From Capitulum mitella (taxonomy: Eukaryota > Arthropoda > Thecostraca > Pollicipedomorpha > Pollicipedidae), in NCBI GenBank assembly GCA_030062745.1, contig CP099854.1, forward strand, positions 8,954,014 through 9,018,013: a stretch of 64,000 nt of DNA, in the 5' to 3' direction. Below are positions 1,713 through 59,344 of the stretch, in pieces. Every line of letters begins with the position of its first letter. The first letter of the stretch is position 1. Below the pieces are notes generated by a model. The model did not search any database and was not told where the DNA came from. It saw only the letters and a list, made by a program, of their open reading frames with translations. A program made the position numbers and the translations under genes.

Positions 1713-1889
1713 ATGCCGACCGGCAAGGAGATGGGCCAGAAGTTGGCCGACATGGTGAATCCCAAGTCCGAGGGCGACAGCAAGGACGACAAGAAGAACG
1801 ACAAGCAGGACACGGGCACCGGAGACGAGCACGGCAAGGTCCCCGACGCCAGCAAACCCACCCACGCCGGCACGCAGGGCAAGAAGTGA
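1713..1889 (+). CDS. Small hydrophilic protein, 58 aa, paralogue of the gene at 59153
   Basis: I do not recognise a named function. The protein starts MPTGKEMGQKLADM and ends THAGTQGKK; between them is a run rich in K, D, G, S, T and E. There is no Cys, Trp, Phe, Tyr or Ile and no signal peptide or membrane segment, so it is probably soluble and intrinsically disordered. I chose the ATG at 1713 because the paralogue has the same MPTxKEMG start and both lie just after a splice acceptor (TTCCCGCAG, AG ending at 1709). A longer in-frame reading from 1686 would use intron sequence. Unlike the paralogue it lacks clear copies of the DNR-NQ-NPN repeat; a weak VNP trace remains at residues 15-17. By composition it could be a hydrophilin-like stress protein, but that is only inference. 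No AATAAA is obvious downstream. Confidence 0.72.
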   Translation: MPTGKEMGQKLADMVNPKSEGDSKDDKKNDKQDTGTGDEHGKVPDASKPTHAGTQGKK

Positions 1890-2085
1890 GCGGCCAGCGC
1901 GTTCTGCCGGCCCCAGCCGCCGCCTGCCGCAGCAGGCGACCACCGCACGCAGCCACATCTGTCTTGTCATGCGCCGCACGCGCCCTCTGCCCTGTTCGAG
2001 TTCGCCGCCTGGCTCTAACGATTTGATTTCGGCGCCGAAAGAAGCGTTGTGTTTTCGTTCGCTAAAGTGGCGGAAATTTCGCTGA

Positions 2086-2148
2086 ACGATCGCAAAGCGA
2101 TATGATTTTCGGGAGTGTTTGGTGTTAAAATATGCGGGATGTTAATCG
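2086..2148 (+). other. 3' UTR block shared with the paralogue
   Basis: About 60 nt resemble the segment near 59492-59551 in the same order: GATCGCAAA, an AT-rich stretch, AGTGTTTGGTG or AGTGTTCGGTG, then a block ending GGATGTTAATC or GAATGTTAATC. It lies about 200-260 nt after the stop codon in both genes. This supports descent from one ancestral transcript and suggests a retained 3' UTR element. Confidence 0.55.
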
Positions 2149-2336
2149 TTGAAGCCATTATTTGTGTGCATGTTCATTTAAGCAGTACAGATGACTTGTA
2201 ACTGAAAAATTGAAGTCTTTTTCCATTGAATTCCAGCACGGCGAGAAATCTGCCATGTGTTCCATCACATCTTACGACGACAAAATCATATGGTATATCA
2301 CATCTTCAGATACAGGCATCTCAGATTACATTTGAT

Positions 2337-2396
2337 CAAGATCACCATACTATATCACGCCTGATCACGACTACGATTAGAAGTATGGTGATCTTG
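2337..2396. repeat. Perfect 15-bp inverted repeat (hairpin)
   Basis: CAAGATCACCATACT at 2337-2351 is answered by its exact reverse complement at 2382-2396, leaving a 30-nt loop. It lies about 450 nt past the stop codon of the small gene. It could be a transcript hairpin or the relic of a small foldback element. Confidence 0.8.
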
Positions 2397-3575
2397 CCTT
2401 ATAAGAACCCCTTCGACCTATTCTAGGCATTTTGGGGGTCGTGCGATCTGTGCCAGCTGATTCAGCGGCGCATTCCGGACAAATAGGCTGGCAGAGGAAA
2501 CAGAACCAACATGCAAGGACGCGAGGCCGGACAGGTGACTCCTGGCTGATTGGCTCGGTAATCGGTCAGAGCTCCGCCGACCGGTTCTGGTCACTGCAGA
2601 GCCATGGTGCGATCATATCGTCATGGGAGAGAGGACGGAGGTACTTGTTACTTGTTACTTGGTACTTGTTTTCCACCCGGAGAGCGGGATCTGATGCAGG
2701 CGCGGCTCGGATATCACGAGGACCGGACATCCGGTCCGTGAAGTGCCGTGATGTCTCGGCTGTTCCTCTCTGAGTGGGCCGTCTGGCGGACAGGGGTGTA
2801 GGAGCGCCACGAAAAGTTGGGGAGACGATTCGTCCAGGGGCGCAGCCTTCAAAAAGGGGGAAGGCGCCGATCTCGAGTAGGGGCGCCACCAAGTTAGAAT
2901 GAAACTGGTGGTTGAGTTATATATTTACGGATTGAAAGAGGCATATACTAACATATTTTTATATTTAGATACATGCATGTGGATATGAGCGGTGCTGAGG
3001 ACCTTGAAGGGGCGAGGCACGTTTTGCTTGCTTTCGCATGACATTGTTCGATTTCAGACTTTTGGCGTTAATTTTTCCACCGCCTGATTTGTCGATACTG
3101 GCTCGCACCTGCAAATGACTTTGTTGCCATCCTGCAGTCTGTGCGAACCGTGCACATCCGCGGTCATCATGTTCAGCCTGGAAATTCACCCTTCTAGCAC
3201 AGTCACGACTTTAAATGTTCTGATTCTGGGGATGTGATGAGAAGTCCTCACAAGTGAGAACAAGACAAGACATTCTGGGATTGCCCATATCCTCAAGCTT
3301 CTCCTCCACCCTGACTTGCTGCTGAAGCTGCTCCTCAAGCTGCCAGATCTGTCCGTCTTTCTCCATGCACTCGTTCTCCAGAACGCCCAACCTTTTCTCT
3401 TTCTCTTCATTATTATTACATATTATCTGCTCAAACTCGATTCCAGTGCTGTTATCATTTGGGAACTACCCTGCTCGATCAGCTGCTTTAGAGCATCCGG
3501 CGTGGTCGAGTACATTCGCACGGGCTGCGGCGGTGACGTGGCGTCGGGCTGCACCGCCTCGGGCGGCGGCCAGTC

Positions 3576-9064: not shown

Positions 9065-12000
9065 AAAGTTTGGCACAGGCAGTGCCGGTGGAAAACTTTG
9101 CCACAAGCTTGGCGAACAGCAACAGCGCTCGGTTGGCGCCGCCCGCCAGCGCCCGGCGTTGCCGATCCAGCCGACGAAGCCCAGCGCGCCCGTCAGTCTA
9201 ACGTATATCGCGTGATAGACATTGCACTACGACAATATTAGTGTCGATTGTTATGCGTCTTTCTTTCCAACTTTGACGCGACGCTCGTAATAGCCATTTT
9301 AACGACAGAGGGTGTTTTACTGTCAATACAACACATCACACTGTTGTGATGGATTACTAAGTGCCTGGTGCGATTAGATGCAGAATTATTTCATTACGTT
9401 ACAGCCACAATTCTGATTTGGTTCCTTGTTGAAGTTCAGGTATGCGTTCATCAGATCCATGTCTAGCCAGTTCTTTACACTCGCCTCCATTCGCTATTTG
9501 CCCACCTTCGATAGTAAGAGGATGGGACAGGGGCTCCGCCAAGTCATTTTGAGTCATGGGGGGTTATAGCAAAGATGGCCCCATAAACTCATTTAGAAAA
9601 TTAGAAAAGTACGTAGTTTCGGCTAAAACTCATTGGATTTGTATTTTGCAGGTACCAGGTTATTTTGTTTAATAGCCTTTTGGTAAAGATGCATTGTAAC
9701 TTCTCTTTTGCATGAAAATCATACCATGCGTACAGGGGACTTAATATAGATATATGCCAAATATGGAGTCATTTTGGACCAGCTGAATACCTTACATGTC
9801 CACGCTTACCTGTTCTACACCTACTGCAGCACCTGTTTACATGTACTGCCCAACCTCTCCTACATATTCGACCTACTTTTTGCCATTACACCTATTCCTG
9901 TCCTTACGTTGAAATTTTCCGGTACGGGGAAACGGCGAGGGTTTGACTGCCAAGCCAAGTTTACTGCAGTTCTGTGCAACACTGGTTACACTATCGCCTC
10001 TTGTGGTGCCACTGTCACAGGTAACGGTTATTGAATGGAGTTGTGGTGCCAACTCGCAGATTACCTGCCCCCTTGGTTCCGTCACTGCCTTCCTGTTCCA
10101 TCTCTAGCAAACGATATAAAAATAAGAACTCAAGTTTCCGTATTTTCCGGCATTTTAATTTACTTCTGCTCGGTAACATGCAAAATACGAATACGTTCTC
10201 ATTCAAGACACCTTATCCATCCCGATTCCTCATTCAAGACACCTTATCCTTATATCCATCCTGGTCCCGAAGCCCTTCCACAGGCGCTAGCATGCAGGGC
10301 TCCATGCGAAGTCGTGCCTCGGATTGCACCATTTTTGTATATCAGCATGCAAATATACATTCGGCAATTACCGGGGTATAATCTCCCCCAATCAGATGGT
10401 TGGAAGGGACGCATCCCCGCCCCCTTGTGGCGGGGCCCATGGGATGGGGGCACGGCCCCCTTCCCTAGCCATTTCTAAATCTTACCTAATGGATAACCAA
10501 ACGAAAGGGAGCGTGTAGCTCGGCCTTTCAGCCATACAAACGACAATAACCCATTTGGCCCTTATAGTTCAAATGTCAACCCTCGCCGAAGGGGAGGGAT
10601 TTTCACTCCCACCGATGACGAGGGGTGATGGCAAGCCTTCCCTCGCCATTTGACCCCTAATTGAGATAGCGCCTTGGGACAGGAGACAATCGATAACTGT
10701 GTGCCCAAGAAATCCAACGGTACCCAGGCGGACTCAGACAAATCAAACAGAGGACCCCCAGGTCAGATCATACTTTACGCTTGGGAATTACAGACTGATT
10801 TTCCGGAATCAGAAGGCACACATTGACGCACAGCGACAGAACGACACACAAAGCGATACCAAATAGGTCTAAAATCGCCCATTTTATCACATTTAGTGCC
10901 AAAAAGTAGTATAGGAACGTTCTAAGGTCAAAAAAGATCATCTTCTGCCATCGACTTCGTTTGACCTTTAAAGAGTCACTGGCTTATCTGAAGTGACCTG
11001 GTCACATGTGGACTACCATTCTGAATCGATTTCATGCCCGTCATCTGCCGTTTATACATAAGTATTGCTCTAAACCAGTAAAAAAACGATATGTGGTGCA
11101 AAACAGGCTTTGCAAATCTTTAGTAATGACATCTTAACTCGGTGCTCCTGAGATGACATAAGGTCACCTTTTACAAAACACGTGCAAGTAATTTAACGTC
11201 AGCTATGCCAAATTTCATGGCGCTTTCGTGCGCCGTTTTGCAGCAATCCCTGAAACATTGCTGTAAGAGCGATATTTCCCGCGTCCGTTTCCAGCGTCCC
11301 CGTCAGCCGGTGTGAGAACGTGCGACACGAAATACAATCGACAGCGTCGTCACATAGCCCAGTCATCAACCACCCTGGGACACTGCTTGGGGGTGACATG
11401 AAACCTCTTATCCGGCGAGGGTTAATTTTACAGGCGGACTCATCGGAGGTCACGTCAATGTATTTCAGGTTCCATTTGATCCTATGAGACCCAATCTACA
11501 GCACGTTTTTAATGGACCCAGAACGACATCTGGCAATCAATATCGACTCAAGCCACTGTTAAAAAAAAAATAAAAATTAAAATTTAATTAAAATAAAAGG
11601 ATTAATTAAAAAAAAAAAAAATAAATTACTTTTTTTTTTTATTTTAACCCAAGATGACCGTCACCCAAGTAAGGACTGCTGTGCGAAAGCCACTGATACC
11701 ACGTTATGTTCTTTAAGGTTTAGGAGGATTGAGTTGCGTAGAATACTGACAATGTTTTTTAAGCGACGCGGACCCCCTCTGCAACATTATTTCGCCACGG
11801 CATGGCCGTGAGAAAGATGTCATGGAGCACTGACCTGTCACTAAAGGCCCACACTAAAGGCCTTCAGTGGGCGAATTTACCCGTTACACACCCGTTACCC
11901 AAGGGTAAGCCCGCGGATACGGATACAGCGATGCAAAATAACACGGGTAACGGTTGAGTAACAGGTACGCAGCTAACTTTTCGCGGCTTAAACTAAGGGT

Positions 12001-12638
12001 AGAAAATAAAAATTGTAGACTAAACAGAAAATATTGTTTTTTTAGAACCATTCGCACTGACAAATTCATTTGCATGCAGCTGCTGTATAATAATGGTAAT
12101 TTTGTAAACTACTGTACTAATGCTATAATAGCAATGCATCATTTACCAAGTATTTTTTATCAAGAAAACTAAGCCTGCCGCTTATGAATCTACGAACCTG
12201 AAGGTTTCAGTCTTCTTCATCTTCGTCTGTGGCCATTTAGGCTTTGACAGAGTCAAATGTGCTGGATGAGCTCATCTGTTTTTCGATATATGAGGAGACA
12301 TACTATGGCAACACCCACAGGAAAATGTCCTGCAAAATGATTGCGTTTATAAAAAGTTTACCATGTCCTACATATCAAGAAATATGCTCTTATGCCCCTT
12401 AACCCTCGCCCGTATAAAATAATGAGGACGTCTGGTGCTGCGACCCCCCGGCTATTTTCCCATCGTGGGTCCCAGAGCGCCGCGGAAAAAGCCAGTGTGT
12501 CGCGCATGACGAGATCTCGCGACTGGCTTTCCATTTTAAGGTCTCGGATCAACTGGAGGCATTTTTCGACTTTAGGCACAGATTAACACCAAAGAATAAG
12601 TAATGATGAAAGGAAACGGATATCACAGTGTTTGTCGA
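9065..12638 (+). repeat. Tandem unit A (most diverged copy)
   Basis: Homology to the later units begins near GGCAAAGTTTGGC and runs through the GC-rich block (9100-9200), the GTTTTACTGTCAATAC landmark (about 9313), and then from 10740 to the end. Between about 9730 and 10735 it has roughly 1 kb with no counterpart in other units, where they carry a (TA)n tract. Either this is an insertion or the others lost it. At 11561-11646 it has an AT-only tract where others have ordinary sequence. No supported gene. Confidence 0.7.
9730..10735. other. About 1 kb found only in tandem unit A
   Basis: It replaces the (TA)n region of the other units. I found no terminal repeats or coding region. A 19-bp sequence, CATTCAAGACACCTTATCC, is directly repeated at 10200 and 10231. 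Confidence 0.45.
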
Positions 12639-13874
12639 TCAATTATTCGATTATGAGTCCATTTGTACCCCACATGATTGTGTTTTAACAATGGAGTCCA
12701 ATCCAGGTTATGCTAGGTCAGTACTTGTCAAATGGGGTCGTCGGCTTAAATGCGTTCTTGGAGCCGCAGAAACATTCTTTTTTTGTAAATAACACTAGAT
12801 GCTGAAGTCAAATGTAACATATGAATTAACCAAAACCATTGCTGAATGGCACACAAATGCCATCTTAGACCGCCCAAGGTTATTTTATGCTAATCACCTA
12901 GAATGATCTCGGATTAACTGGTGACTTTCGAAGTGTTCGAAGTGTTTGCAGTCTTTTTGGGTTGACATCCACCACAGAATCTAATTTCGGGTATGCCGCA
13001 GTATTCTAGACTCGTCATCCTGCGGCCGGCGCCGCTCCGCCCTTCGAAACAAATCTTTGTATTACCCTTTGTACAAATTTGTTCCCTTTGTTCCGACGCA
13101 TTGCGGCCCGACGCACAAAGCGCAGGCTTCACTGCATTCCACCCTTCGCTGATGAAATAAAAGATACCTTGCGCCAAACTTCTATCGCTCGCGGCGCCGG
13201 TGGAAATCTTCGCCATAAGTTTGGCGAACAGCCGCAGCGCTCGGGCAGCGCCGCCCGCCAGCGCCCGGCGACAGCCGACTCAGCCGACGACGCCCGGCGG
13301 GCCGGTCTGTCCAACGCCATATCGCGTCATAGACACTACACTACAACACTATTAGTGTCGTTTGTAACACGTATTTCTATTTAACTTTGACGCGACGCTC
13401 GTAATAGCCATTTTAACGACAGAGAGTGTTTTACTGTCAATACAACACAACACACTGTAGTGATGGATTGTTAAGTGTTTGGTACGATGAGATGCAGAAT
13501 TATTTGATTGCGCTACAGCCACAGTTCCGATCTGGTTCTCTGCTAAAGTTCAGTTATGCGTTCACCAGATGCATGTTTGACCAGTACTTAACACTCGCCT
13601 GCATTCGCTGTTTGGCCACCTTCGATAGTAGCAAGGGCTCCACCACGTCATTTTGATTGGGGGTTATAGCAAACATGGCCTCAGAAGCCAATCTAGAAAA
13701 CTACGAAAGTGTAGAATTTCGGTTACACTCATTGGATTTGTATTGCTACAGGTACTAGGTCGTTTTTTTTACAGTACTGCATGCATAGAATACGCTTATA
13801 TTTTGACAAACATGCAATGTAATTTCCCTTCTAGATGAAAATCATTCAGTGCGGTCGAGGGTCGGGATTTGATA

Positions 13875-13920
<46 letters not shown>

Positions 13921-14901
13921 CATACCTCGATTTGTGCCTCGACTCTGTGAGATCAACCAGTGTACTCCTAGGTCAGATCAGACTTCAAGCTGGGGGACTA
14001 TATATCATCAATTTCCATTTCTTAAATCAATTTTCCGGAGTTGAAAAAGACACATTTGGGACCAAATATTCATAAAATCGTCTGTTTATCACATTTAGTG
14101 CCAAGAATTAGTAAAGGAACGATCTAAGGTCAAAAAGGATCATATTCGGCCATTTACCTCGTTTGATCTTCAGAAGGCCATTGGCTTATCTAAACTGACC
14201 TGTTCGAAAGTGGACTAACATTCTGAATCGAATTCATGCCTGTCATCTGTCGTTTATGCACCTATTCCCTTAAAAAAAGTAAAAAAAAAACATTTGGTGC
14301 AAAAATGGCTCTGCAAGTCTTCATTAATGACATCATAGCTCAGTGACCTGATATGACAGAGGATCGCCTTTTACAAAACATTTGCAAGTAATTTAACGTC
14401 AGCTATGCCGAATTTCACGGCGCTGTCGTGCGCCGTTTTGCCGTAATCACGGAAACATCGCTGTGAGAGCTATATCTGGCCGTTCCCGCGTCAACCGGCA
14501 TGAGAAGGTGTGACAAAAAATACAGTCGAAAGCGTCGTTAGATAGCCCTATAACCAGTCATCCCAGGGCATTGCTGGGGGGTGGTATGAAATCCCTTGTC
14601 CGGCGAGGCTTAATCTGACAGGTGGACTCATCGGAGGTCACGTCAGTGTATTTCAGTCTCCGTTCGAACCTATGAGGCCTAATCTACAGAACGTTTTTAA
14701 GGGACCCAGAACGACATCTGGCAATTAATATCGACTCAAGCCACTGCTGGTGTACAAATCAGCATTACCAATTATATAAGGACAAATGGATCGATTAAAG
14801 ATCAAAAAGACTGATGACCTCAGTTCATAATCTGGACCCAAGATGACCGTCACCCAAGTAAGGACTGCTGTGCAAAGGCTACTGATACCATGCCATCTTC
14901 T

Positions 14902-16120
14902 TTAACCCTATTCCCGGCAGGGGGGAGGGCGGAATCCGCCCCCCTCGGGTTTTTTGCTTGCCGATTCCAGGCTTTTTAACGCAGCTTCACGAAACTTGCT
15001 GACTTTTCCTAGCTATTCTTTCTACGCGCCGTGACCAAATTTCGAAATTCTATTTTGCTCAGGGGCGGAGCCAGGCAACGTTTTCGGGAGGCACCTCATG
15101 CCATTTTTGGCCATGTTGAGGGTAAAAGGAAAATCTCTGCCAAAAACAGAGTTTTTAAGATAAAACTTAAAACTTTATACGAATGTATAGCTAAATAGTT
15201 GGGCAATGTGCATATGTAATTTTGTTTATCTGAGGTCACTTTACAAGGTCAGGTCAAGGTCAAAAGTTAAAACATGTTTTTTTGCAATAATTTCGGCGCC
15301 ACTTTTTCAAATGCCAAACCCGAAATATTTATGACGTAGAACGGCACCCTCTACTTGTGTATCAAGTTTCAGCTTGATATCAGGCTGGGTCACGGAGCTA
15401 TGAAGTAAAATGTCAGTGCGCGTACCCTCTATCGCAATAGCCATAAAATGAAATTTTCGAAATAGAGTGAATTTAAATGATTGAAAACGTTTACAAATAA
15501 TACTAAATACACACGAGATCATTCCAAGTGACCCCAAGGTCACTGGAGGTCATTTAAGGTCAAAGGTCACAAGTTGATCTGAAGAACGTATGACCATAAT
15601 AGTTTCCCCTTTTTCATGTCCCTGGCACCGCCTATGCTAACATTATACCAACATTGCAATACGATTTGTACTTCTTTGGCATAGCATGACTAGCAGAAGC
15701 CAAAAAAGTGTTTGTGCCTTTTTTGTTCATTCAGCTGTTGGAAAATTAATCCTCCTATTTTTTAAACCCTGCGAACGCCCATGAATTTTCTCAAAATTTC
15801 AGATTTGCGGACCCATGGTAAAAGCCCGATCCATAATCTCTCGGTTCATGCCAGTTTCATTGAAATCGGTCCATAAACGACGGAGTTATAAGAGGTCCAA
15901 AAGCACCCCCCATTTTGACATTTCTGCCCCCCTGTATTCACAAATTTCAAAATTTTGAAAATTTCTTCTTATAAAAATCCACTTCACGTCATGGCAAATC
16001 GATTGCCATTTGTTGCGATGTAATCGCATGTGTAGTTCTCGAGATCTCAGGGGGGGCCAAATCCGCCACTCCCCCGCCGGGAATCGACCATACCGTCTAG
16101 CCCTCCGGGAATAGGGTTAA
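14902..16120. mobile_element. Family 1 TTAA element, full length, 1,219 bp
   Basis: Ends are TTAACCCTATTCCCGG and CCGGGAATAGGGTTAA, perfect 16-bp inverted termini that include the TTAA target. Unit C has the uninterrupted site CTTGTTTAAGACTTAG at the matching place (23750-23763), so insertion at TTAA is shown directly. CCCT-type termini and TTAA duplication fit the piggyBac superfamily. There is no transposase frame, so it is non-autonomous. Inside are eight AGGTCA half-sites between 15233 and 15569. They include TCAAGGTCA (15254-15262), CCAAGGTCA (15534-15542) and a DR1 pair at 15557-15569. Confidence 0.88.
15233..15569 (+). promoter_or_regulatory. Cluster of AGGTCA nuclear-receptor half-sites
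   Basis: AGGTCA occurs at 15233, 15246, 15251, 15257, 15537, 15547, 15557 and 15564. Two sites match YCAAGGYCR, the monomer consensus known for FTZ-F1/SF-1 and ERR. The last two form AGGTCA-A-AGGTCA, a DR1 arrangement typical of HNF4/RXR-type dimers. The cluster also lies at the same place in the copies at 16440-17363 and 62306-63523. Binding is not shown. Confidence 0.55.
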
Positions 16121-22698: not shown

Positions 22699-22765
<67 letters not shown>

Positions 22766-24189: not shown

Positions 24190-24299
24190 GAAGTTTATTA
24201 TTAAATTTAGTTGGTTAGTTTAGTTCATTATTAAGTTTATTATTAAATGCCGTCGCCATACGGGTTAAAAAATTAACGCACACAGATTTGGATAAGTAG

Positions 24300-26606: not shown

Positions 26607-26635
26607 GGCTGCAGACCCCCCGCGCTCCGCTCTGC

Positions 26636-26661
26636 CCCGCCCCGCCCCGCCCCGCCCCGCC
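26636..26661. promoter_or_regulatory. Tandem GC boxes (CCCCG)n
   Basis: Five consecutive CCCCGCC steps form overlapping Sp1-type GC boxes inside a GC-rich island of roughly 26040-26860, repeated in D2 at 49332-49357. An AATAAA follows at 26904. This could mark a promoter, but no transcript can be assigned. Confidence 0.4.
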
Positions 26662-32410: not shown

Positions 32411-32711
32411 CATACCTCGATTCGACTCCACCACGTCATTTTGATTGGGGGTTATAGCACAGATTGTCTCAGAAGCCAATCTACAAAACTGCAAAAGTGC
32501 AGAATTTCGGTTACACTCATTGGATTTGTATTTTTACAGGTGTTAGGTCGTTTTTTACAGTATTGCATGGATAGAATGCGCTTATATTTTGACAAACCTG
32601 CAATGTAATTTCCCTTTTGGATGAAAATCATTCAGTGTGGGTGTAGGTCGGGATTTGATATCTATATATCTAATAACACATAGATATACATATATACATA
32701 TACATACATAC

Positions 32712-32758
<47 letters not shown>

Positions 32759-35899: not shown

Positions 35900-35973
<74 letters not shown>

Positions 35974-39126: not shown

Positions 39127-39177
<51 letters not shown>

Positions 39178-42337: not shown

Positions 42338-42376
<39 letters not shown>

Positions 42377-44274
42377 CATACCTCGATTCGTACCTCGACT
42401 CCGTCAGGTCACCAGTTTACTCCTAGGTCAGATCAGACTTCAAGCTGGGGGACTATATATCATCAATTTCCATTTCTTAAATTAATTTTCCTGACTTGAA
42501 AAAGACACATTTGGGACCAAATATGCTTAAAATCGTCTCTTTATCACATTTAGTGCCAAAAATTTGTAAAGGTACGATCTAAGGTCAAAAAGGATCATAT
42601 TCGGCCATTTACCTCGTTTGACCTTCAGAAGGCCTTATCTAAACTGACCTGTTCCCAAGTGGACTTATATTCTGAATCGAATTCTTGCCCGTCATCTATC
42701 GTTTATGCATACCTATTCAGAAGTAAAAAGAAACATTTGGTGCAAAAATGTCTCTGCAAGTCTTCATTAATGAGATCATGGCTCAGTGACCTGATATGAC
42801 ATAGGGTCGCCTTTTACAAAACATTTGCAAGTAATTTAATGTCAGCTATGCCAAATTTGACGGCGCTGTCGTGCGCCGTTTTGCCGTAATCCGTGAAACA
42901 TTGCTGTGAGAGCGATATTTCGCCGTCCCCGCGTCAACCGGCGTGAGACGGTGCGACAAAAAATACAGCCGACAGCGTCGTTAGATAGCCCTACAACCAA
43001 TCACCCTGGGGCATTTCTGGGGGTAGTATGAAACCCCTTGTCCGGCGAGGGTTAATCTTACAGGCGAACTCATCGGAGGTCACGTCAACGTATTTCAGTT
43101 TCCGTTCGATCCTATGAGGACCAATGCACAGAACGTTTTTAAGGGACCGAAGACGACATCCGGCAATAAATCGACTCAAGCCACTGTTGGTATACAGATC
43201 AGCATTACCGATTACATCAGAACAAATGGATCCATTTAAGCTCAAAAAGATTGATGACCTCAGTCCATAACTTGGACCCAAGATGACCGGGACCCAATTA
43301 AGGACTGCTGTGAGAAAGCCACTGATACCACGTTACGTTATTTAACTGTAATAATATTGTAGGATTGAATTGCGTAGAATACTGACAATGTTGTTTATCC
43401 GACGGGGACCACCGGGGCAACGTTATTTCTCCACGGCATGCCCGTGAGAAAGACGTCATAGAGCACCGACCTGTCACTGAAGGCCCACACTAGAGGCCTT
43501 CAGTGGGTGAATTTACCCGTTACACACCCGTTACCCAAGGATAAGCCCGCGGATACGGATACAGCCATGCAAAATAACACGTGTAACGGGTGGGAAACAG
43601 GTACGCAACTACCTTTTCGCGGCTTAAACTACGGATCAAAAATAAAAATTGCGGGCTAAACGGAAATACTGTATTTTTTTAAGAACCACTCCCCTCACAG
43701 AATCACTTGGATGCAGCTGATGTATACTGCCAATTTTGTAGTCTACTGTAGTAATACTATAACAATATATCATTTACCAAGTCTTTTTAATCAAGAAGAC
43801 TAGGCCTGCCGCTTTTGAATTTACGAACCTGCAGGTTCCAGTCTTCTTCATTTTCGTCCGTGGCCATTTAGGCTTTGACAGAGTCAAATGTGCTCGATGA
43901 GCTCATATGTTTTTCGATGTATGAAGAGACATATTAGGGCAACACCTACAGGAAAACAGTCATGCAAAATGATTGCAATAATAAAAACTTCATGGTGTAC
44001 CACATATCAAGAGGTATGTTTTTATGCCCCTTTATTCTCGCCCGTATAAAATAATGAGGACGTGCGTGGAGGCTGCGACCCCCCCCGCTATTTTCCCATC
44101 GTGGGTTCCAGAGCGCGGCGGAAAAACCCAGTGTGTCGCGCATGACGAGATCTCGCGACTGGTATCCCATTTTAAGGTCTCGGATCAACGGGAGGCATTT
44201 TTCGACTTTAGGCACAAATTAACACCAAGGAGTAGGTAATGATGAAAGGAAACGGATATCACAGTGATTGTCAA
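41105..44274 (+). repeat. Tandem unit 4 (3,170 bp)
   Basis: Complete unit with the shortest TA tract (about 42341-42373). It has the GTGAGAAAGCCACTGATA subtype after the AGGTCA-rich part. Its GC-rich block (41660-41780) carries variants shared with unit 5 (GCGGTTGCCGACTCAGCC), suggesting exchange between neighbours. Confidence 0.85.
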
Positions 44275-45495
44275 TCAATAATGAGTTCATCTGTACCCCA
44301 CATGACTGTGTTTTAACAATGGAGTCCGATCCAGGTCATGCTAGGTCAGTCCTTGTCAAATGGGGTCGTCGGCTTAAATGCGTTCTTGGAGCCGCAGAAA
44401 CATTTTTTTTCTAAATAATAATAGACGCTGAATTCAAATGTAACATATGAATTAACCAACAGCGTTGCTGAATGGCACACAAATGCCATCTTAGACCACC
44501 CAAGGTTATCTTAAGCCAGTCAGCTAGAATGATCTCGGATTAAGCAAAACTGATGACTTCGAAGTGTTTACAGTGTTTTTGGGTTGACATCCAACACAGA
44601 ATCTAATTTCGGGTATGCCGCAGTATTCCAGACTCGTCATCCTTCGCCGCTCCGCCCGTCAAAACAAAGCTTACGCTTTGTTTTACCCTTTGTACAAATT
44701 TGTTCCCTTTGTTCCGACGCATTGCGGCCCGACGCACAAAGCACAGGCTTCACTGCATTCCACCCTTCGCTGATGAAATAAAAGATACCTCGCGTTAAAT
44801 TTCTATCGCTCACAGTGCCCGGTGGAACTCTTCGCCACAAGTTTGGCGAACAGCCGCAGCGCTCGGGCGGCGTCGCCCGCCAGCGCCCGGCGGTTGCCGA
44901 CTCAGCCGACAACGCCCGGTGGCCCGGTCTGTCCAACGCATATCGCGTCATAGACAATACACTACAACACTATTAGTGCCGTTTGTAGCACGTCTTTATT
45001 TTTAACTTTGATGCGGCGATCGTCATAGCCATTTTAAAGACAGAGAATGTTTTACTGTCAATACAACATAACACATTGTTGTGATGGATTGTTAAGTGTT
45101 TGGTACGATGAGATGCAGAATTATTTGATTGCGCTACAGCCACAATTCCGATCCGGTTCTCTGCTAAAGTTCAATTATGCGTTCACCAGATGCATATTTG
45201 GCCAATACTTAACACTCGCCTGCATTCGCTGTTTGGCCACCTTCGATAGTAAGCGGGGTGGGTAGGGGCTCCACCACGTCATTTTGATTGAGGGTTATAG
45301 CACCGATGGCCTCAGAAGCCAATCTAGCAAACTACAGAAGTGCAGAAATTCGGTTACACTCATCGGATTTGTATTTTTACAGGTGCTAGGTTGTTTTTTA
45401 CAGTATTGCATGGATAGAATGCGCTTATATTTTGACGAACATGCAATGTAGCTTCCCTTTTGGATGAAAATCATTTAATGCGGTCGAAGGTCGGG

Positions 45496-45550
<55 letters not shown>

Positions 45551-46973
45551 CAGCATACCTAGATTCGTACCTCGACTCCGTGAGGTCACCAGTTTACTCC
45601 TAGGGTCAGGTCAGACTTCATGCTGGGGGACTATATATCATCAATTTCCATTTCTTAAATTAATTTTCCGGAGTTGAAAAAGACACATTTGGGACCAAAT
45701 ATGCTTAAAATCGTCCCTTTATCACATTTAGTGCCAAGAATTTGCAAAGGAACGATCTAAGGTCAAAAAGGATCATATTCGGCCATTTACCTCGTTTGAC
45801 CTTCAGAAGGCCATTGGCTTATCTAAACTGACCTGCTCCCAAATGGACTAATATTCTGAATCGAATTCTTGCCCGTCATCTGTCGTTTATGCATACCTAT
45901 TCAGAAGTAAAAAAAAAAAACATTTGGTGCAAAAATGGCTCTGCAAATCTTCATTAATGAGATCATGACTCAGTGACCTGATATGACATAGGGTCGCCTT
46001 TTACAAAACATTTGCAAGTAATTTAACGTCAGCTATGCCAAATTTCACGGCGCTGTCGTGCGCCGTTTTGTCGTAATTCCGGAAACATTGCTGTGAGAGC
46101 GATATTTCGCCGTCCCCGCGTCAACCGGTGTGAGAAGGTGCGATAAAAAATACAGCCGACAGCGTCGTTAGATAGCCCTACAACCAATCACCCTGGGGCA
46201 TTGCTGGGGGGTGGTATGAAACCCCTTGTCCGGCGAGAGTTAACACTACAGGCGAACTCATCGGAGGTCACGTCAGTGTATTTCAGTTTCCATTCGATCC
46301 TATGAGACCCAATATACAGAACGTTTTTAATGGACCCAGAACGACATCTTGCAACCAGTATCGACTCAAGCCACTGTTGGTGTACAAATCAGCATTACCG
46401 ATTACATCAGGACAAATGGATCGATTAAAGATAAAAAAGAATGATGACCTCAGTTCATAATTTGAACCCAAGATGACCGTCACGCAATTAAGGACTGCTG
46501 TGCAAAGGCTACTGATACCATGCCATCTTGTTTAAGATTTAGTAGGACTGAGCTGTGTAAAATACTAACAATGTCTTTTATCCGATGAGGACCACCGGAG
46601 GCAACGTTATTTACCCACGACATGCCCGTGGAAAAGACGTCATAGGGCATCGACCTGTCACTAGAGGCTTTCAACCGATGGATTTACCCGTTATCCGCCC
46701 GTTACCCACGGGTAGCCCCGCGGATACGCATGCAGTCATGTAAAATAACACGGGTAACGGGTGGGTAACAGGTACGCAGCTAACTTCTCGCGGCTTAAAC
46801 TACGGATCAAAAATAAAACTTGTAGGCTAAACGGAAATATTGTATTTTTTTTAAGAACCATTCCTCCTCACAGAATCGCTTGCATGCAGCTAATGTATAC
46901 TGCCAATTTTGTTGTCTACTGTAGTAATACTATAATAGCAATATATCACTGACCAAGTCTTTTTAATCAAGAG
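44275..46973 (+). repeat. Tandem unit 5, truncated at segment D2
   Basis: About 2.7 kb. The first half resembles unit 4. The second half (from about 46240) switches to variants of unit C: GAGACCCAATATACAG, GCAAAGGCTACTGATACC and AGTAGGACTGAG. It stops at TTTTTAATCAAGAG, exactly where unit C meets D1. (TA)n at 45501-45545. Confidence 0.83.
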
Positions 46974-48726
46974 GTTTATTATTAAATTTAGTTAGTTAGT
47001 TTAGTTTATTATTAAGTTTATTATTAAATGCCGTCGTCAGACGGGTTAAAAAATTGACGCACACAGATTTGGATAAGTAGGCCTCACTAGTTTGTATTTC
47101 TTGGAGTTATTAGGCAATATGGTTTGCCGTACTGATTTTGGAAAGATTTAGGATGTGCAGTCTATACAGTTGGTGAGGCTTTATTCAGACAAGCTCGTTC
47201 CTTAGCCAAACATGCGATTTTAATAAACGTTTTGAACTCATGGATATCATTAGCCAGTTTGAGAGCGAGTTCTATCATTTTCTGTCCTTTCCAAGTCATT
47301 CGTCGCAGATTTTGACGCCGGTACATTTTTGCTCCCTATAGTCATTGGTGACATTACCCCTAGCCAGTGATGGGTGCTCAATAACTGGGGGTCAGTTATA
47401 CTTGGCTAAATAACAATCGATGTTAGTTCCCATCACCTTAAACCCACAATGTCCGAAAAAATGAGTTTCTGACAACATGGCGATGTGTCTTAAAAATGGG
47501 CTTCATCGTAGGTCCATGGCCCGGCCGCTCCCGAAAAATCCAAGATAACAGATTTGTTGCGGCTCTCAAGATCCCTAATTCCAGGAAGTTTTGTTTGGAT
47601 ATCTTGTGTTTGTAGCTACGAGGAGGGGGCTAAGCTTTTTCGGACGTAGGTTGCTTTGACTTGTCGCAGGTCACAGACTTCATCTGACTTGAACTCGAAA
47701 TTTACACCCAAGGCGTAAAAAGACCAATGAAAGGGCATTCAAAATTTCGTGCTGCTGCGTTTTTCGTCTTCTCGCATAGACGAAAAAACCTTTGGGTGGT
47801 GGTCATTCCCTGAGCCCTGCAGGATGAGAATTAATTTATGGCTTTGGAAAACGACGTTACAATGCTGTCACTAGATGCTAAGTAAGAAACGTAGAGGTCG
47901 TGTTGGACGACGTGTCGCAAGTTGGCGTGATCATGAGTTGTGAGTTGAAACAGCACAAGAAGAGCCAAATCTGCGTAAATACTACGATAGCATTGTTAGC
48001 GTCTAACCCTCATTATCATCAGTCTAGACATAACACCATATCCGAAAGCTACAAAATTCCACCAGGTTACTTTAGGATGGCTTTTCCTGTTCTTATCGCA
48101 TGACACCAGATACATTTAACAGTGATTTTTAGTCTCATACCAGGTTCAAAGCTTCTACTTCTAGATTTGAATAATTGCTTGCGCGATTGCCTGGGGTACC
48201 TTAACCCTATTCCCGTACTTTTGACGCTAGCACACATTTCCGTATGGGGGTGGGTGGGTGGTAGCATTCCCCCCCCCCCCCAAGATCTCAATGACGGTTA
48301 ACGGTCTCAGTAACAGTAACGGTTCCGTCGTTTTCAACGGAATGTCACCGCCGTCAATCTTTTTCACAGTGCGCTCGACAGCGACGAGCACGGCGTACTC
48401 CGTCGAGTGTTTTGGCCTGCAGGCTTACTGAGAAAAGTTGAGCAGGTCACATTCTTGGAGATGCACACACAGTTGACTGCAGGCCGCTTGTTTCTGAGTT
48501 CTGGACAAAACACTGAGTATGGAAATAGGCCTGTTATTGGAGGGGGTGAAGGATCTCCAGATATCAAAATCGGAACGACGCACGCGACTTTTTATTGCTC
48601 CGGGAATACTTAAGTCACAAGTGACAAATTTATGAGTCGCAAAAGGTGAGGCCCAATGGCTACACGGATAACATTCTCGTACAGCTGCAAGCGAGACGTC
48701 GTGAAGGCCCACGGCACACGAAGAGG

Positions 48727-49302
48727 TCACGCATCTGATGCAGGCGAGCAGTTCAGAGAGCGTGGCTGACGTGACGGTGAAACGGCCACGGTCGGCGGTC
48801 GAGGGCACTTCTGTCCGCTGGTGATGTGGTCGCGAAGACTGGCAGATACGCGGGAGCCGGCGGAGGCAGAGTAGCGATTGAAGCTGTCAGCCGCCGCCTC
48901 TGCATTCGCGGGGCTCACTGTCGATGCACTTTCGGGCGGTGCCGCGCTCGACGTGAACTTTCGAAAGGTCGGCCGGAAACCGCGCCGGTCGCCGGCCGCC
49001 GTCTCATCGCACAAGAAGTCGCATCCGGGCGCGAATACGGTTAAACTGCGGCACTGCATAGCTTCCACTCGTGACACAAGATCCCTGAAAAACACTCCGG
49101 TTTTTGGTATGATGTTGCGTTGCTTCTTTCCAGTGCATGCCATAGCACACCCGCGCCCGGTCACCCGTGGCCGTCGCCTCGAGTCGCCCAGCGCTGTAAT
49201 CGCGTCACGACATGTTTCCGGAGGCCACTGTTTACCCACGTGCAGCCATGGCCGGCGGCGGTGCCGGGCGGGACTCTGAGGGGAACCCCTGACAGCCATC
49301 AT
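48727..49302 (-). CDS. Hypothetical 191-aa frame, D2 copy (doubtful)
   Basis: Counterpart of the frame at 26031-26606, same length, with roughly six amino-acid replacements and no recognisable domain. Conservation here reflects the recent duplication and says little about function. Kept only because both copies stay open. Confidence 0.18.
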   Translation of the reverse strand: MMAVRGSPQSPARHRRRPWLHVGKQWPPETCRDAITALGDSRRRPRVTGRGCAMACTGKKQRNIIPKTGVFFRDLVSRVEAMQCRSLTVFAPGCDFLCDETAAGDRRGFRPTFRKFTSSAAPPESASTVSPANAEAAADSFNRYSASAGSRVSASLRDHITSGQKCPRPPTVAVSPSRQPRSLNCSPASDA

Positions 49303-50336
49303 GGCTGCAGACCCCCCGCGCTCCGCTCTGCCCCGCCCCGCCCCGCCCCGCCCCGCCAGGCATCACGGCAGCGGGGGCCCACACCTTCCTCGCCGTCAGA
49401 CACTCCAGCTGCAGACAGACCGCCACGCCACTATCGCGATAACTGCCGCCGGCCGAGCCGCTGGCCGAGCGACGCGGCAGCTCGGCTCTGGGTCCAGCAT
49501 GGGCAGATCCACGATTTCGTCAAAGGGGGCAGGGGACAAATGGTGAACGCGGTGCCCCATCTCGGTCGTTCCCTCCCCATTTTCTGTTGCTGAAATGTGA
49601 ATAAACGTCGATCTGCTCGGGTTCAGTAGCAATGTTTGATGGAATTTTGCGTTTCTTTCTATATAAAGTAACAAAAAAGTTTCATGCGCGTCACCTTATC
49701 TGAAAGAGTTTTACGTTTTGTTCCCCTACAAAGTGGCCGAAACATGAAAACAACGACGGGATTTCAGGTGGCTGCGTCCCTCCCTCTCTTTGAAATGTGT
49801 CTGCAAATGTTTGAAATGTGTGACCTTTGATGACTTTGACCCTTATTGACCCTGGCTTTGGTCTTGGTACATCCATCACTTACGTCCGACGTCGCGTGAT
49901 TGTGTTCAAGCGGTAATGTTGGGTACAACGTTAGTCATTTCACAAAGTTCCAATTTGTCAGCGACAACCGTCGTTTTCGTTATGTTTGCCTGACTTCAAA
50001 TGCTGGAAATTTCAATCATTGTCGGCTGATTTTCAATTTTTCTGCGTCAATCGACAAGTTCTTCAGTTGCCATAAACGTCACAAAGTGGCAGCAACCAGC
50101 TCTAACCCGTTCCCGAGATACTCAAGAAAAACAGGCGGGGGGCACAAAAAGACACCCTTTCCGTGCGCGTGTTGGGAAGATTCCCTCTCCGTGCGTATTT
50201 TCACTCATGGGTGCCGAGTAAACGGATATTCACTCACGAACCAATGGTCACGATGACCATTTTACAAAAAACAAAAAAAAACATAGATAAATAGCCCAGT
50301 GTCAGCAGAACAACGAACAATGACACACTTATTCGC

Positions 50337-50895
50337 TTAACCCTATTCCCGGAGGGCTACACGGTATGGCCGATTCCCGGCGCGGGGGGGGGGTGGATTC
50401 GAACCCCCTGAAATCTCGAGAACTACACATCCGATTTTACTGCAACAGGCGGCAATTGATTTGCGATGACGTAAACTACGCTTTTAAAAAAGGAACTTTC
50501 AAAATTTTGGCGCGAGAATTGCCGTGTCTTTAACTCAACGTTTCGGCGTATATATTGAACAGATCTGAGAAATTAGACGTGTTTCGACATCCGCGGACCT
50601 TTATTTGTGCGCTGGTGCCTTTACCTATGCGTTATTAGTCACAGCCCTTGAGATTCAGGCCATTTCTCGGTCTCATGCAGTCGGCTATGAGAAAACATAT
50701 ATAGGGCGTAAATTGCTTACATATCATCTAAAACTAAAAAATGAGACCAGCTTCGAGCTCTACTGGTCACAAGCTTTCCAACGGTATGCTTATTTTTGTC
50801 GTGCGACCAACCGTTCGTGAGTTAGAAAGGGGGCGGCCAACTGCCCCCCCCAGTCGCGCATTTTCGAAACCGACCGACGGTCGTGCGCGGGTTAA
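50337..50895. mobile_element. Composite TTAA element, D2 copy
   Basis: Same family 1/family 2 composite as at 27641, with the same internal switch point and TTAA at both outer edges. The G run near the left end and the C run near the right end differ in length from D1. Confidence 0.75.
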
Positions 50896-52932
50896 GACAG
50901 TTGAAGCATGCATGACGTGAAACGGTCATTCATTACGGAAACTGAACCCGTCACCGCCTGGGGGTGTCAAATAGAGCACCCCCCACAGTTTTTCGTGAGA
51001 AGCTTCTGAACCAGTAAAGACAGCCCAACCAAACTTTCAATGGCTATTATTCAATCAGTTCTACACATTTCGACACCAAAACCATTGTAATGCTAGGTGA
51101 GGTCACAGAGATATGACGTCATAAATGAACCCTTGCATGCATGTTTTCAGCTCTTCGGGCGGTGACGCGAACATGCTTGGTTTTTTTATAATATTCTCGA
51201 ATATATTGTATCGACTATCTGGATTTATATTAGACATGGTCCCCGAAAGGATATGCAACCGTGACACGTCAACATTAAAGGTCATGGTAGGTCACATGCA
51301 TGATGACAATTGGACTGATTTGCATTGAGGGTGATGAAAGTGGTTGCCGCTGACCTTCCCCGTCGTTCAAGCCAGACAAGCAAATACCCTTCAACAAAGC
51401 TCGCTAAATGCAACGTGAGGTCATGTCAGGTCACGTCATAGGCTGATGTCAAAACCAAAGAAATACATAGTTGTCTGTGGAAGACTGTTCAGTGGTAGCA
51501 ACGAAGCACTATTGTTCCTAGTCACAAAAGGAAAAATGACTTCATGACCTGACCTGGCTTTACCTTGACCCGATAAGAAGCACAAAGAGTAAATTTCATT
51601 GACAGGAGATGTCGTTTCAGTTCTGTACTTACGCGGTTAACAATCTCAGCGAGTAATGGTTGCTCTTTGTCAGGAAGAGTAATGCAACTTTATCTAACCT
51701 AGCCTATAATGACCTTGACTGGATGAAAAACAGGTAATGCGAAAGTGATCATCAGAAGGTTTCACGTCTGTTCTTTTCGTCAAACAGCTGTGAGTTAGTA
51801 TCAATCTTTAGCATGTGAAGTAAAACCAGTATTTCACCTGACCTAGGCTGACCTCGACCGGACACTTTTTTACACTTTGGCATACGTATGATGTAGAAGA
51901 TTGTGACATTTCGTTTGGTACCCAGTTGAAGGCTCTTAGACCAGTGTTGCCGATGATATGGTGTACAGACCGGAGTCAATTTTTCTGACGTCATGCGTTT
52001 TGCGTGCCGTGTAACGTCACCAGTCACGTGACCAGGGCTAACATAGTATTTTGTGAATCGCAAGACTCAGGGCTATCGACTGGTGGTAGACCGATTCAGG
52101 TCTGACAACTAGATCCTGAGATAACAGGAGGGGAGGATGCCCTTTCTGACAGCCCCAGTCGGTCACAGTTGTAAAAACATGCCGGGCGGTGCCAGGTTAT
52201 TATACGGCGTTATCTATCTACCGACCTTGCACCGATGAAGTGTTAGCTAAGATCTGGTAAGCGCGCAGGGAAAACTTATAAGAATAGCTAGCGTGTTGCG
52301 GCCGGCTGCACATCACTACGAGTCAGTGAGAAGAAAACAGATAGGATACGAACATTAGAGGGAGAAGGCCGAGTTTTAGTCATCTAGCAGACAAAGTTAA
52401 GTCGTGCTCCCCGGCCTGGCCCTGCCTTAGCGAATTCCGAGGACTAACAACCGACACGCTGCGAGATTCTCGTCGAGAAAGTTCGCAGCCCCGAAACTGC
52501 ACCAGGCGAACGAAGCTGCCAAATGGGCCGCGGTGCGGCGGGCTGCTTTCCCGAGATTCAATGCTGATCGGATGAACAAAGCTGAAAAGCGTGAAGACTC
52601 CCTATTGTCGAGCTGACCAGACGTCAAGCTGATGACGAGTGAGGGCGACGCGGATGCCGGAGCGACATCGACGTCTCGACTGGTCGCAACTAAGGCCCCC
52701 GGGCGATGTCGTCCAAGACAGCCAGCGATACAAAGCCTCCGGGCCTCGGGACACTCGGCCGACCTCGGCTGCATGCCGCCGGCGAACGAGGACGATTCGA
52801 CGCAGTTCAGCTTCCTCTCCAGACGCTAGTGTTTAGTCTCGGGCTGCAGCGGCCGGAGGCGGGACTCTTGAAGGGAAGTTCCTGCTCTACCGAAACGATC
52901 TGCGGCACTGCCGCACCGCTGCAGACGATGCA

Positions 52933-56728: not shown

Positions 56729-56746
56729 CTAGTAATACAGCAGTAT

Positions 56747-58016
56747 TTAACGCTATTCCCGGAGGACTAGACGGTATGGCCGATTTCTGACAAGAAAGTA
56801 TGGCGGATTCGCCCCCCCCCCCACCTGAAATCCCGAAAACCAAACATCGAATTTGATCGGAACAAACGGCAATCGGTTTGTCTTGACGTAAACTAAATGT
56901 TCCTAGAAACAGGTTTTGCGAATTTTGAAACGGGTGGATACAGGGGGAAAAACGTCAAAATATGGCATTTTTGGACTTTTTATAACTCTTTTGCTCTTTG
57001 GCCGATTTTGATCAAATTGGCGTGAGTCGAGAGATTACGGATGTTTCTTTTACGATTGGTCCATACATTTGAAATTTTGGGAGAATTCATAGGCATTGAC
57101 AGGGTTTTAAGAAGGATTAGTTTTTCAAAAACTGAATTAACAAAAAAGTTGAAAGCACTTTTTAGCTTTCACTAGTCATGTCATGCTCAAGAAGTACAAA
57201 TCGTGTTACATTGTTCGTATAATGTTGGCATATGCGGTTGCAGGGACATGAAAAGGGTGAGGGACTGTCATGGTCACATGGCCATCAGTTTCACTTTCGA
57301 CCTTTGACCGTAAATGAGCTCCAATGACCTTGGAATCACTTGGAAAAATCTTGTGTGCATTTCATATTGTTTGAAAGCGTTTCCAATCATTTGAATTTAC
57401 TTTATTTCTAAATTCCATTTCACGCCTGTTGTGATATAGGGTACGCGCACTGACATTTTACGTCATAGCTCCATGACTCGACCTGATATCACGCTGAAAC
57501 TTGATACACAAGTAAAGGGCACCATTCTACGTGAGGTATAATCATAAGTAAGTAAGTAGAGCTACATAAGTAGAGGGTATCTTTATACGTCATATATATT
57601 CCGGGTTTGGCATTTAAAAAATGGCGCCAAAATTATTATTATGAAACGAAACTTTGATATTTGACCTTGACATGACCTTGTGAAGTGATATCAAATGATA
57701 AAATTCCATTTGCATGTTTGCACAAGTATTTATCCATACATCATCAAAAACTTTAGGTTCTGTGTAAAAAATGCTATTGTTGCCAGACATTTTGCTTGTC
57801 CCTCAACAGCGTTAAAAATGGCCTGAGGTATCTCCTAAAAATGTTGCCTGGCCCCGCCCCTGAGCAAAACAGAATTACAAAATTTCGCTCCAGTACGGAT
57901 AAAAATAAATAGAAAAATCCACCAAGTTTAGTTAAGTTGCCTAAAAAATCCTGGAATTGGCTACCAAAAAACCCTAGGCGGGGCGGATTCAGTCCTCTTG
58001 CCGGCAATTGAGTTAA
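56747..58016. mobile_element. Family 1 TTAA element, inverted, 1,270 bp
   Basis: It starts TTAACGCTATTCCCGGAGG (right end read first) and ends GCCGGCAATTGAGTTAA. It is diverged along its length: the DR1 pair is degraded to CGACCTTTGACC, and a short GTAAGTAAGTAG-like duplication lies near 57546. The orientation is opposite to the copies at 14902 and 62306. Confidence 0.8.
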
Positions 58017-58265
58017 CATGTATTTCGAATGTTCTCGTGTTGTTGCTATCATTAAATGATCTGTCATTAAATAATTATGTGTATTATATATGTGTTATTA
58101 TACATATTAATGTTATCTAAAGATTTGTTTACTGTATTTAAGAAGAAACAACTGAAAAATACCAGTCTCTGAAGTTAACGCACAACGTCAAACTTCGTCT
58201 CAAGAACATAGCTGTTCACCCGTTAGAGAAGCTTTGGTGCGGTCACCTTCACAGTTCTGCCGTTC

Positions 58266-58391
58266 ATTGGAGGCGAGCTCTTCTCAGTAGCCAATGGGAG
58301 GGCTCCACGGCTGATGACGCATGTGCACTGAGCGCCACCCCCCACCCCCCGGCCTGGGTATATAGACAGATAGCCGACAGCGCCCACCTCA
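58266..58391 (+). promoter_or_regulatory. Predicted promoter of the 63-residue protein gene
   Basis: TATATA at 58359-58364 is followed by the initiator TCAGTC with its A at 58391, 32 bases from the start of the TATA, as expected of an arthropod core promoter. Upstream are CCAAT at 58291 and its reverse complement ATTGG at 58266. TGATGACG at 58312-58319 is shared with the paralogue promoter. Taken together this is the best promoter in the window. Confidence 0.7.
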
Positions 58392-58447
58392 GTCTTCAGG
58401 CGGAAGAGACTACTGTCTGGAGCTTTATCTCCACTGCCAAGTCAACA
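58391..58447 (+). other. Predicted non-coding exon 1 of the 63-residue protein gene
   Basis: 57 nt from the initiator to a consensus donor, CAACA|GTAAGT (GT at 58448-58449). The 699-nt intron ends at TTTCCAG (59146), six bases before the ATG. The intron contains a tandem duplication of about 125 bp. Confidence 0.65.
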
Positions 58448-59152
58448 GTAAGTACAACCAATTTTGGCAAGCCAAAGTCTGGCATCGTTCTGCGTACCGG
58501 CAGGATGCTGTGCTGTTTTACTGCTATTGTGCCTTTCGTTTCCGCTAGTTACGAGAGAGGTCGTTGACCTGGTGACCATGAGACAAGGACTCTTCAGCGA
58601 GGAGACAACAAACCAAATTGGGCGGCAGGCGGATCCTCGCCACAACTGTTTTCGGAGGCCAATAACCTGGCATCCCCTGAGCACCGAATCATGAATTTTC
58701 ACGAGAATATAAGTCACCTCTTCAAATTCTGTTTATTTTTTTTTGCAATATCTTTCCTTGCGACTTCTTTCTTCCACTGAACTGTTTCGGGAAATGCCGA
58801 AAAATGTTATCAGTATTTTTTATTGCAAGACTCGCGTTGCAAAACCCATAGAATGAACCTAAAAGTAATAATGCGCCAAGCAATAACAAACCAGTCCTCT
58901 CTCATACCCCCAGCCCTACATGGCGCCATATTCCTTTCACGACCCGACGAGCGGTGTGATTTTCTTCGTGAATCACGTGATGCTGTCGAACATTTGTTTC
59001 TGCGCCAAGCAATACCAAAAACCTCGCTCATAACTCCCTCTTTATGCCGTCATGCTGCTTTCGTGACTGAAAGAGCGGTATAATTTTCATTGTGAATCAC
59101 GTTATGCTGTCGAACATTTGTTTAACCGATTTCTGCGTGTTTCCAGTAGACA

Positions 59153-59344
59153 ATGCCGACCGACAAGGAAATGGGCAAGCAGGCGGTGGACAACCGAGCC
59201 AACCAGCTGAATCCCAACCACCCGACCTACCAGAGCGGGGCGAATCGACATACGGGAAACGCCGACACGTTCGGCAAGCCCGCGGCCGACAACCGCTCGA
59301 ACCAAATGAACCCGAACAACCCCAACTACCAGGGAAAGAAGTGA
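59153..59344 (+). CDS. Small repeat protein, 63 aa, with two DNR-NQ-NPN motifs
   Basis: The function is unknown to me. The protein opens MPTDKEMGKQ and has two copies of a 16-17-residue motif: DNRANQLNPNHPTYQSG at residues 13-29 and DNRSNQMNPNNPNYQG at 46-61, 33 residues apart, joined by a polar linker. It ends GKK. It has no Cys, Trp or Ile, no signal peptide and no membrane segment; Asn is very abundant, so it is probably disordered. I recall the D-N-R-x-N-Q-x-N-P-N pattern from uncharacterised small proteins of other eukaryotes, but cannot verify that here. The ATG is the first after the acceptor and matches the paralogue at 1713. Promoter, spliced leader exon and AATAAA at 59587 give a complete gene model. 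Confidence 0.85.
   Translation: MPTDKEMGKQAVDNRANQLNPNHPTYQSGANRHTGNADTFGKPAADNRSNQMNPNNPNYQGKK

Follow-up and report, generated by a model that had tools for sequence, protein, structure and literature searches.

What are the two tiny genes in this 64,000-nt stretch of the Capitulum mitella genome (the window; contig CP099854.1, given below as C16:8954014-9018013), and do they have relatives elsewhere? A sequence-only reading of the window had picked out two open reading frames (ORFs) and proposed that they are dispersed paralogues from an undescribed family of short disordered proteins. Both are present where it placed them, at 1713-1889 and 59153-59344, and we refer to them as A (protein P0001, 58 aa) and B (P0002, 63 aa), with A′ and B′ denoting further copies beyond the window, which turned up when the genome containing it (477,042,490 bases in 16 contigs) was searched. 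An arthropod source agrees with at least 150 Chitin_bind_4 places above the cut-off in that genome, 150 of 627 candidates being scored. From their sequences, we consider it probable (roughly 80%) that B and B′ are members of a family, as yet without a name, of tiny proteins that are hydrophilic and disordered and carry a short repeat unit, that A and A′ are paralogues without the units, and that the A-B pair underwent an inverted duplication. The family appears to extend over many bacteria and archaea as well as this arthropod.

The case for such a family starts from the unit DNRxNQxNPN of B, from which we built a DNA pattern that was used on the window, on viral contigs, and on bacterial and archaeal contigs. 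In the window the pattern had two matches, both exact and both in B, and 100 shuffles gave none at two or fewer mismatches; B′ also carries the unit twice, as DNRxNQ(L/M)NPN. Elsewhere, 8 viral contigs and at least 114 bacterial or archaeal stretches matched. The matches listed comprise 113 distinct ORFs (prokaryotic starts were picked by a rule of our own), of which 90 are no longer than 80 aa and 67 no longer than 60 aa. Among the same listed matches, a hand count of record titles assigned 25 of 114 loci to archaea, and seven of these 25 are Asgard (Prometheoarchaeum, Heimdallarchaeota, Lokiarchaeota and Sigynarchaeum). Some of the carrier bacteria have genomes of about 0.8 Mb. Of the 90 small members from prokaryotes or viral contigs, 54 have two units by a rule of our own; other members carry a single unit, to which a longer tail or domain may be added. 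The C-terminus is GKK in 14 of these 90 ORFs and KK in 27, and B likewise ends in -GKK. Typical members such as MAKGNGVSSNTHTQQQRDHYANQHNPNNSAHKANNDNRSNQLNPNNSNYRGKK (L018, from a Bacillales metagenome-assembled genome) and MGKNRSSNDDRSDSKNPNNSSSKASRDNRSNQMNPNNPRYQGKKK (L081, Lokiarchaeota) show the two-unit plan and the ending seen in B. The consensus of the unit lies near (K/Q)xxxDNR(S/A)NQ(L/M)NPNNxxY; a protein has it once or twice, rarely three times, and the C-terminus is often basic, as in -GKK.

Because this set was selected by a pattern taken from B, only features outside the pattern count as evidence of kinship. Among such positions, -4 is K or Q in 104 of 112 ORFs, +10 is N in 99 of 113, and +13 is Y in 71 of 111. 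Both units of P0002 show the K at -4 and the Y at +13, and +10 is H in unit 1 and N in unit 2; the protein also fits the family plan of a tiny ORF with two units and a basic C-terminus. A profile made from the 54 two-unit prokaryotic and viral-contig proteins, with the window sequences excluded, scored P0002 at 63 bits (E 5.6e-18), as against 11 bits for the best of 2000 shuffles. When the bacterial member L055 was searched against the whole arthropod genome, there were four matches up to E 10, and these were the two units each of B and B′.

For 71 hand-picked prokaryotic pairs, the ratio of non-synonymous to synonymous substitution rates (dN/dS) was finite in 24, ranging from 0 to 0.78, with 23 of the 24 below 0.5; one other pair was undefined with a dS of zero, and 46 had saturated synonymous sites with dN between 0.09 and 0.33. 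Thus, most of the small prokaryotic ORFs are constrained coding genes. Within B, comparison of unit 1 with unit 2 across 20 codons counts 7.5 synonymous changes against 6.5 non-synonymous ones, a ratio of 0.13. Prevalence was estimated in 815 genomes sampled from four groups with an alignment of 22 rows (A3; 20 prokaryotic sequences plus B and B′) at a threshold of E 0.001, the centre genome being included in each count. The phylum to which L081 (Lokiarchaeota) belongs had 22 matching genomes out of 195, the L073 phylum (Acholeplasma) 17 out of 195, and the L074 phylum (Methanoculleus) 11 out of 196. The reversed A3 control, run in two of these groups, matched none of 195 genomes in the L081 phylum and one of 195, at E 1.9e-4, in the L073 phylum.

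Searches of existing libraries placed none of these proteins convincingly. Pfam, including its LEA, SMP and KGG families, gave no match up to E 10 for P0001, P0002 or five prokaryotic members, under HMMER filters that drop most matches above about E 0.1. NCBIfam and PHROGs had no match for P0001 or P0002, the PDB had none for P0002, and the prokaryotic members reached chance level only in NCBIfam (E 0.23) and PHROGs (E 0.26). With P0002 as the tblastn query, four plasmid records were returned, all at E 2 or above, and no phage records; a two-unit bacterial member had no match in plasmids, and a one-unit member had five, three labelled "hypothetical protein" and two without an annotated feature. 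Small ORFs with that label are among the nearest annotated counterparts, and none of the libraries searched here unites them in a family. The strings DNRANQ, DNRSNQ, NQLNPNN, NQMNPNN, NQLNPN, NQMNPN, NQHNPNN and RSNSMNPNN had no occurrence in the literature searched, which is the open part outside subscription papers, and the five-letter NRSNQ and NRANQ occur there in 9 papers that appear unrelated, judging by their titles and the beginnings of their abstracts. The family may be known elsewhere under another name.

On the charge-hydropathy plot, A, A′, B, B′ and all 90 small prokaryotic or viral-contig members fall on the disordered side, although this index alone is weak because so do 70 of the 193 ORFs of the window that served as controls. 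AlphaFold2 modelled B from alignment A3 with low confidence (mean pLDDT 57, pTM 0.19). The four arthropod proteins also come under the hydrophilin rule, a loose, compositional one that is quoted in PMC7448490 as glycine above 6% and a hydrophilicity index above 1: their GRAVY values are -1.68 to -1.81 and their glycine contents 7.9-15.3%. The rule holds as well for 9 of the 193 control ORFs, and both rules hold for just 36 of the 90 small members. The stress-related role that the sequence-only reading had suggested is tentative, its one link here being this loose rule. In being small, very hydrophilic, above 6% glycine and predicted to be disordered, A, A′, B and B′ resemble hydrophilins and LEA-like proteins; unlike those, the family of B has a specific conserved motif and no Pfam match, LEA families included. 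Overall, the proposal of an undescribed family of short disordered proteins is supported by the motif in prokaryotes, the lack of a convincing library match, and the disorder indicated by charge-hydropathy and AlphaFold2, and the family seems wider than had been proposed.

The unit is also found in other settings. In L012, L020, L025, L029, L039, L052, L053, L084, L088 and L107 it stands near the N-terminus of proteins of about 180-280 aa, with starts of the type MSSKSDRDNRSNQLNPNNDAYxSSRG that often lead into an acidic run; going by record titles, we take these long proteins to be mostly from Betaproteobacteria and Pseudomonas. A second family architecture, seen in L021, L022, L047, L087 and L112, has one unit and an acidic tail near SRGxDxRPDDWEDR. 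The archaeal L013, L095, L108 and L122 have an additional C-terminal stretch of the SGRWSQRMDAKSASRIQSHADK type, which we presume to be like the plant seed maturation protein (SMP) motif; L013 and L122, the two of these four that were tested (with starts of our choosing), had no Pfam match.

Turning to the relation between the two genes of the window, A and B are indeed paralogous, as shown by their common ends, shared 3′ untranslated region (UTR) and upstream blocks, the same layout, and collinear same-strand blastn blocks beyond chance. The strongest of these blocks spans the start codon (1701-1742 and 59141-59182; 81%, E 3e-6), followed by the 3′ UTR block (75%, E 1e-4) and the upstream CCAAT-like block (83% over 30 nt, E 0.002), and there are two weak matches, one in exon 1 (E 0.8) and one near the stop codon (E 0.23). 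At the protein level, global alignment of P0001 with P0002 scored 79, which none of 5000 shuffles equalled, but the best shuffle reached 77 and the margin of this test alone is therefore narrow; local BLASTP aligned the first 13 residues only (8 of 13 identical, E 4e-4). Only gene structure and alignment identify A and A′ as paralogues of B; the unit DNRxNQ(L/M)NPN was not found in P0001 or, by eye, in A′. The alignment of A′ with B′ runs through MPxGKxxGQKxAD, QMNP in place of QLNP, TGxADxxGK, and DSRGNP in place of DNRSNQMNP, and ends with QGKK. A and A′ thus seem to derive from a B-type protein, having lost the core of each unit and become Asp/Lys-rich. The sequence-only reading had left it undecided whether one protein lost the repeats or the other gained them; loss in A would be likelier than gain in B because it is the form with the unit that prokaryotes have as well, and A′ retains QMNP and DSRGNP at the places taken by NQLNP and DNRSNQMNP in B.

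In all four genes, 85-92 nt separate a TATA box from a GTRAGT donor, the ATG is preceded at exactly 3 nt by an acceptor AG, and the predicted exon 1 would be about 55-60 nt long if transcription begins some 30 nt past the TATA. The layout of TATA box, predicted non-coding leader exon, donor and acceptor that had been described for A and B is present there as described and recurs in A′ and B′, and it needed one correction: an acceptor 3-6 nt before the ATG had been given, whereas the conserved AG of the 63-aa gene is 59148-59149 and the AG three bases earlier is gone in B′. Between A and A′, identity is 92.6% in exon 1 (631-685), 96% in the first 100 nt of the intron, and 80% in the remaining intron. 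For B and B′, the corresponding values are 93% in the promoter, 65% further up, 84.2% in exon 1 and 83% in the intron. These two genes also share an exact run of 174 nt, for which about 7e-18 would be expected at a background identity of 0.77 with gap positions counted as mismatches, and gene conversion is the simplest reading of this tract. For this reason, the fact that the second half of B has diverged little does not on its own argue for protein constraint. A TGATGADG-type motif (TGATGACG), put forward earlier as a common upstream element, was rejected as a promoter element of the family: it occurs 5 times in the window versus 2.28 expected, 9 of 100 shuffles reach 5, and it is not present upstream of A′ in the stretch checked. 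It is kept upstream of B′, and in A it sits inside a minisatellite that A′ mostly lacks.

The genome searches located A′ at C16:8940630-8940809 on the minus strand (85% at the DNA level) and B′ at C16:8909609-8909797, also on the minus strand (89% at the protein level); the remaining genome matches of A and B were at E 0.4 or worse. The gene order along the chromosome is B′(-), A′(-), A(+), B(+), a palindrome. Because the flanks of A and B recur in inverted orientation at 80-82% identity, the sequence indicates that the A-B pair is one arm of an old inverted duplication (about 80% identity) that gave B′ A′ A B. The earlier picture of two same-strand paralogues around a repeat-filled interval holds for both genes and for much of the filling, made up of repeats with matches to one another inside the window and between the two arms, but the pair is only half of a four-gene set.

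Several observations weigh against our main reading. P0001 scored 1-2 bits with the 54-protein profile and 5.5 bits with a 90-protein profile, no better than shuffles. The core of the profile is circular, as the prokaryotic set was gathered with a pattern derived from P0002, and the individual matches of L055 in the 477-Mb genome are weak, at E 0.03-0.9; with units this short, descent is not fully separable from convergence. Within the arthropod, dN/dS between A and A′ is 1.14, with no purifying selection, and that between B and B′ is 0.70 on few changes (3 synonymous and 8 non-synonymous) and with the conversion tract included, all 8 non-synonymous changes lying within the first 31 codons. 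In the class of L041 (Shewanella; Gammaproteobacteria), alignment A3 matched 1 of 229 genomes, that one being the query's own, and some of the weaker prevalence matches (E near 1e-5) may be chance because the reversed profile gave a match at E 1.9e-4. Finally, no gene neighbour recurs: the commonest Pfam family was found in 4 of 130 scanned flanking ORFs (157 were found, and those of at least 600 aa and some others were omitted), so that partner genes give no hint of function.

As for how the arthropod came by B, the gene could have been acquired from a bacterium, such as a marine gammaproteobacterium, and then have gained a promoter and leader intron before duplication to A and inversion. We regard this horizontal route as possible but somewhat unlikely: within A3, the top identities to P0002 after B′ are the gammaproteobacterial L035, L041 and L055 (59-60%), and the patchy distribution and intron-free coding sequence suit a transfer, yet identity over about 46 residues has little power, and the Asgard rows reach 44-55%. 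It is similarly doubtful that A and A′ are decaying pseudogenes and not working divergent copies. Their dN/dS, the loss of the units, and the shuffle-level profile score would fit decay, whereas both genes keep open frames of 58-59 aa with start, stop, TATA, donor and acceptor despite about 20% divergence across most of the intron, and their coding sequences are 86% identical as opposed to 80% for most of the intron. Vertical inheritance of an ancient family from the archaeal ancestor of eukaryotes, with loss in many lines, appears unlikely; the greater frequency in the Lokiarchaeota phylum than in the gammaproteobacterial class sampled speaks for it, but the family is present too in the Acholeplasma and Methanoculleus phyla. 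Separate convergence of N/P/Q-rich disordered sequences on a similar motif in arthropod and prokaryotes, which the short biased sequences, the pattern-set profile core and the weak E-values of the bacterial query would allow, is quite improbable given the agreement outside the pattern (both units share the K at -4 and the Y at +13), the plan of two units, the -GKK end, shuffles at no more than 11 bits, and reversed-profile counts of 0 and 1 of 195.

We picture the product of B as a small protein, soluble and disordered, whose conserved unit would act as a linear motif, perhaps doubled for avidity. Such a protein would either shield cell components in the manner of a hydrophilin or dock onto some partner that is widely conserved. 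The arthropod would express it from the predicted TATA promoter with a short untranslated first exon. Our best guess, a tentative one, is a hydrophilin-like protectant that carries a conserved linear motif. More speculatively, and with odds well against it, the motif of about 18 residues might mark a universal but overlooked family of tiny disordered proteins in all three domains, including some bacteria with genomes of about 0.8 Mb. Its members would bind or protect a component that all cells share, and the arthropod would have expanded the family and partly re-purposed in its palindromic cluster. Small proteins escape annotation, and a specific motif missing from the libraries searched offers a handle on a possibly general function, the more so as it is constrained in most measurable close prokaryotic pairs and occurs in an animal and in Asgard archaea as well as in bacteria with very small genomes. 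The four-copy inverted cluster, in which loss of the motif (A) sits beside its retention (B), amounts to a natural experiment.

Table 1. Features of genes A and B and of their surroundings, in window coordinates
Feature	Position	Strand	Remarks
Upstream CCAAT-like block of A	419..448	+	common with B
Minisatellite of A between CCAAT-like block and TATA	472..585	+	contains TGATGACG; mostly absent in A′
A-containing segment	581..3104	+	inverted copy at C16:8939391-8941976 (A′), 79.8% identity
Predicted non-coding exon 1 of A	631..683	+	TATA at 598, donor GTGAGT at 684 (same in A′); exon start inferred
Predicted 5′ UTR intron of A	684..1709	+	acceptor AG 3 nt ahead of ATG
Gene A coding sequence (P0001, 58 aa)	1713..1889	+	divergent paralogue without DNRxNQxNPN repeats
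3′ UTR block of A	2088..2147	+	common with B (blastn)
B-containing segment	55417..61320	+	inverted copy at C16:8907567-8912157 (B′) in three pieces, 80-82%: 61320-59006, 58999-58102, 56749-55417
Promoter footprint of B	58195..58334	+	135/140 identical to B′; 57990-58190 is 65%
Upstream CCAAT-like block of B	58276..58305	+	common with A
Predicted non-coding exon 1 of B	58391..58447	+	TATA at 58359, donor GTAAGT at 58448; exon start inferred
Predicted 5′ UTR intron of B	58448..59149	+	acceptor AG 3 nt ahead of ATG, kept in B′
Gene B coding sequence (P0002, 63 aa)	59153..59344	+	probable eukaryotic member of the two-unit family
B unit 1	59189..59230	+	DNRANQLNPNHPTY
Exact 174-nt identity of B and B′	59255..59428	+	runs from the end of the coding sequence into the 3′ UTR; probable gene conversion tract
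B unit 2	59288..59329	+	DNRSNQMNPNNPNY, then QGKK and stop
3′ UTR block of B	59494..59550	+	common with A (blastn)
AATAAA poly(A) signal of B	59587..59592	+	kept in B′; 245 and 247 nt from stop

Scans of the window for tRNA genes and Rfam families gave no match. Self-comparison of the window revealed 4.3-kb direct copies of 99% identity at 25909-30235 and 48605-52932, which belong to a longer near-copy (20836-25840 versus 43624-48616, 93%). An assembly problem is possible at 25909-30235 because the copy stops exactly at a gap of 500 N (30236-30735). The region 32687-46972 is a repeat array with an offset of about 3.2 kb, whose repeats are roughly 86-94% alike and have relatives at 10858-14905 and 20836-24193.

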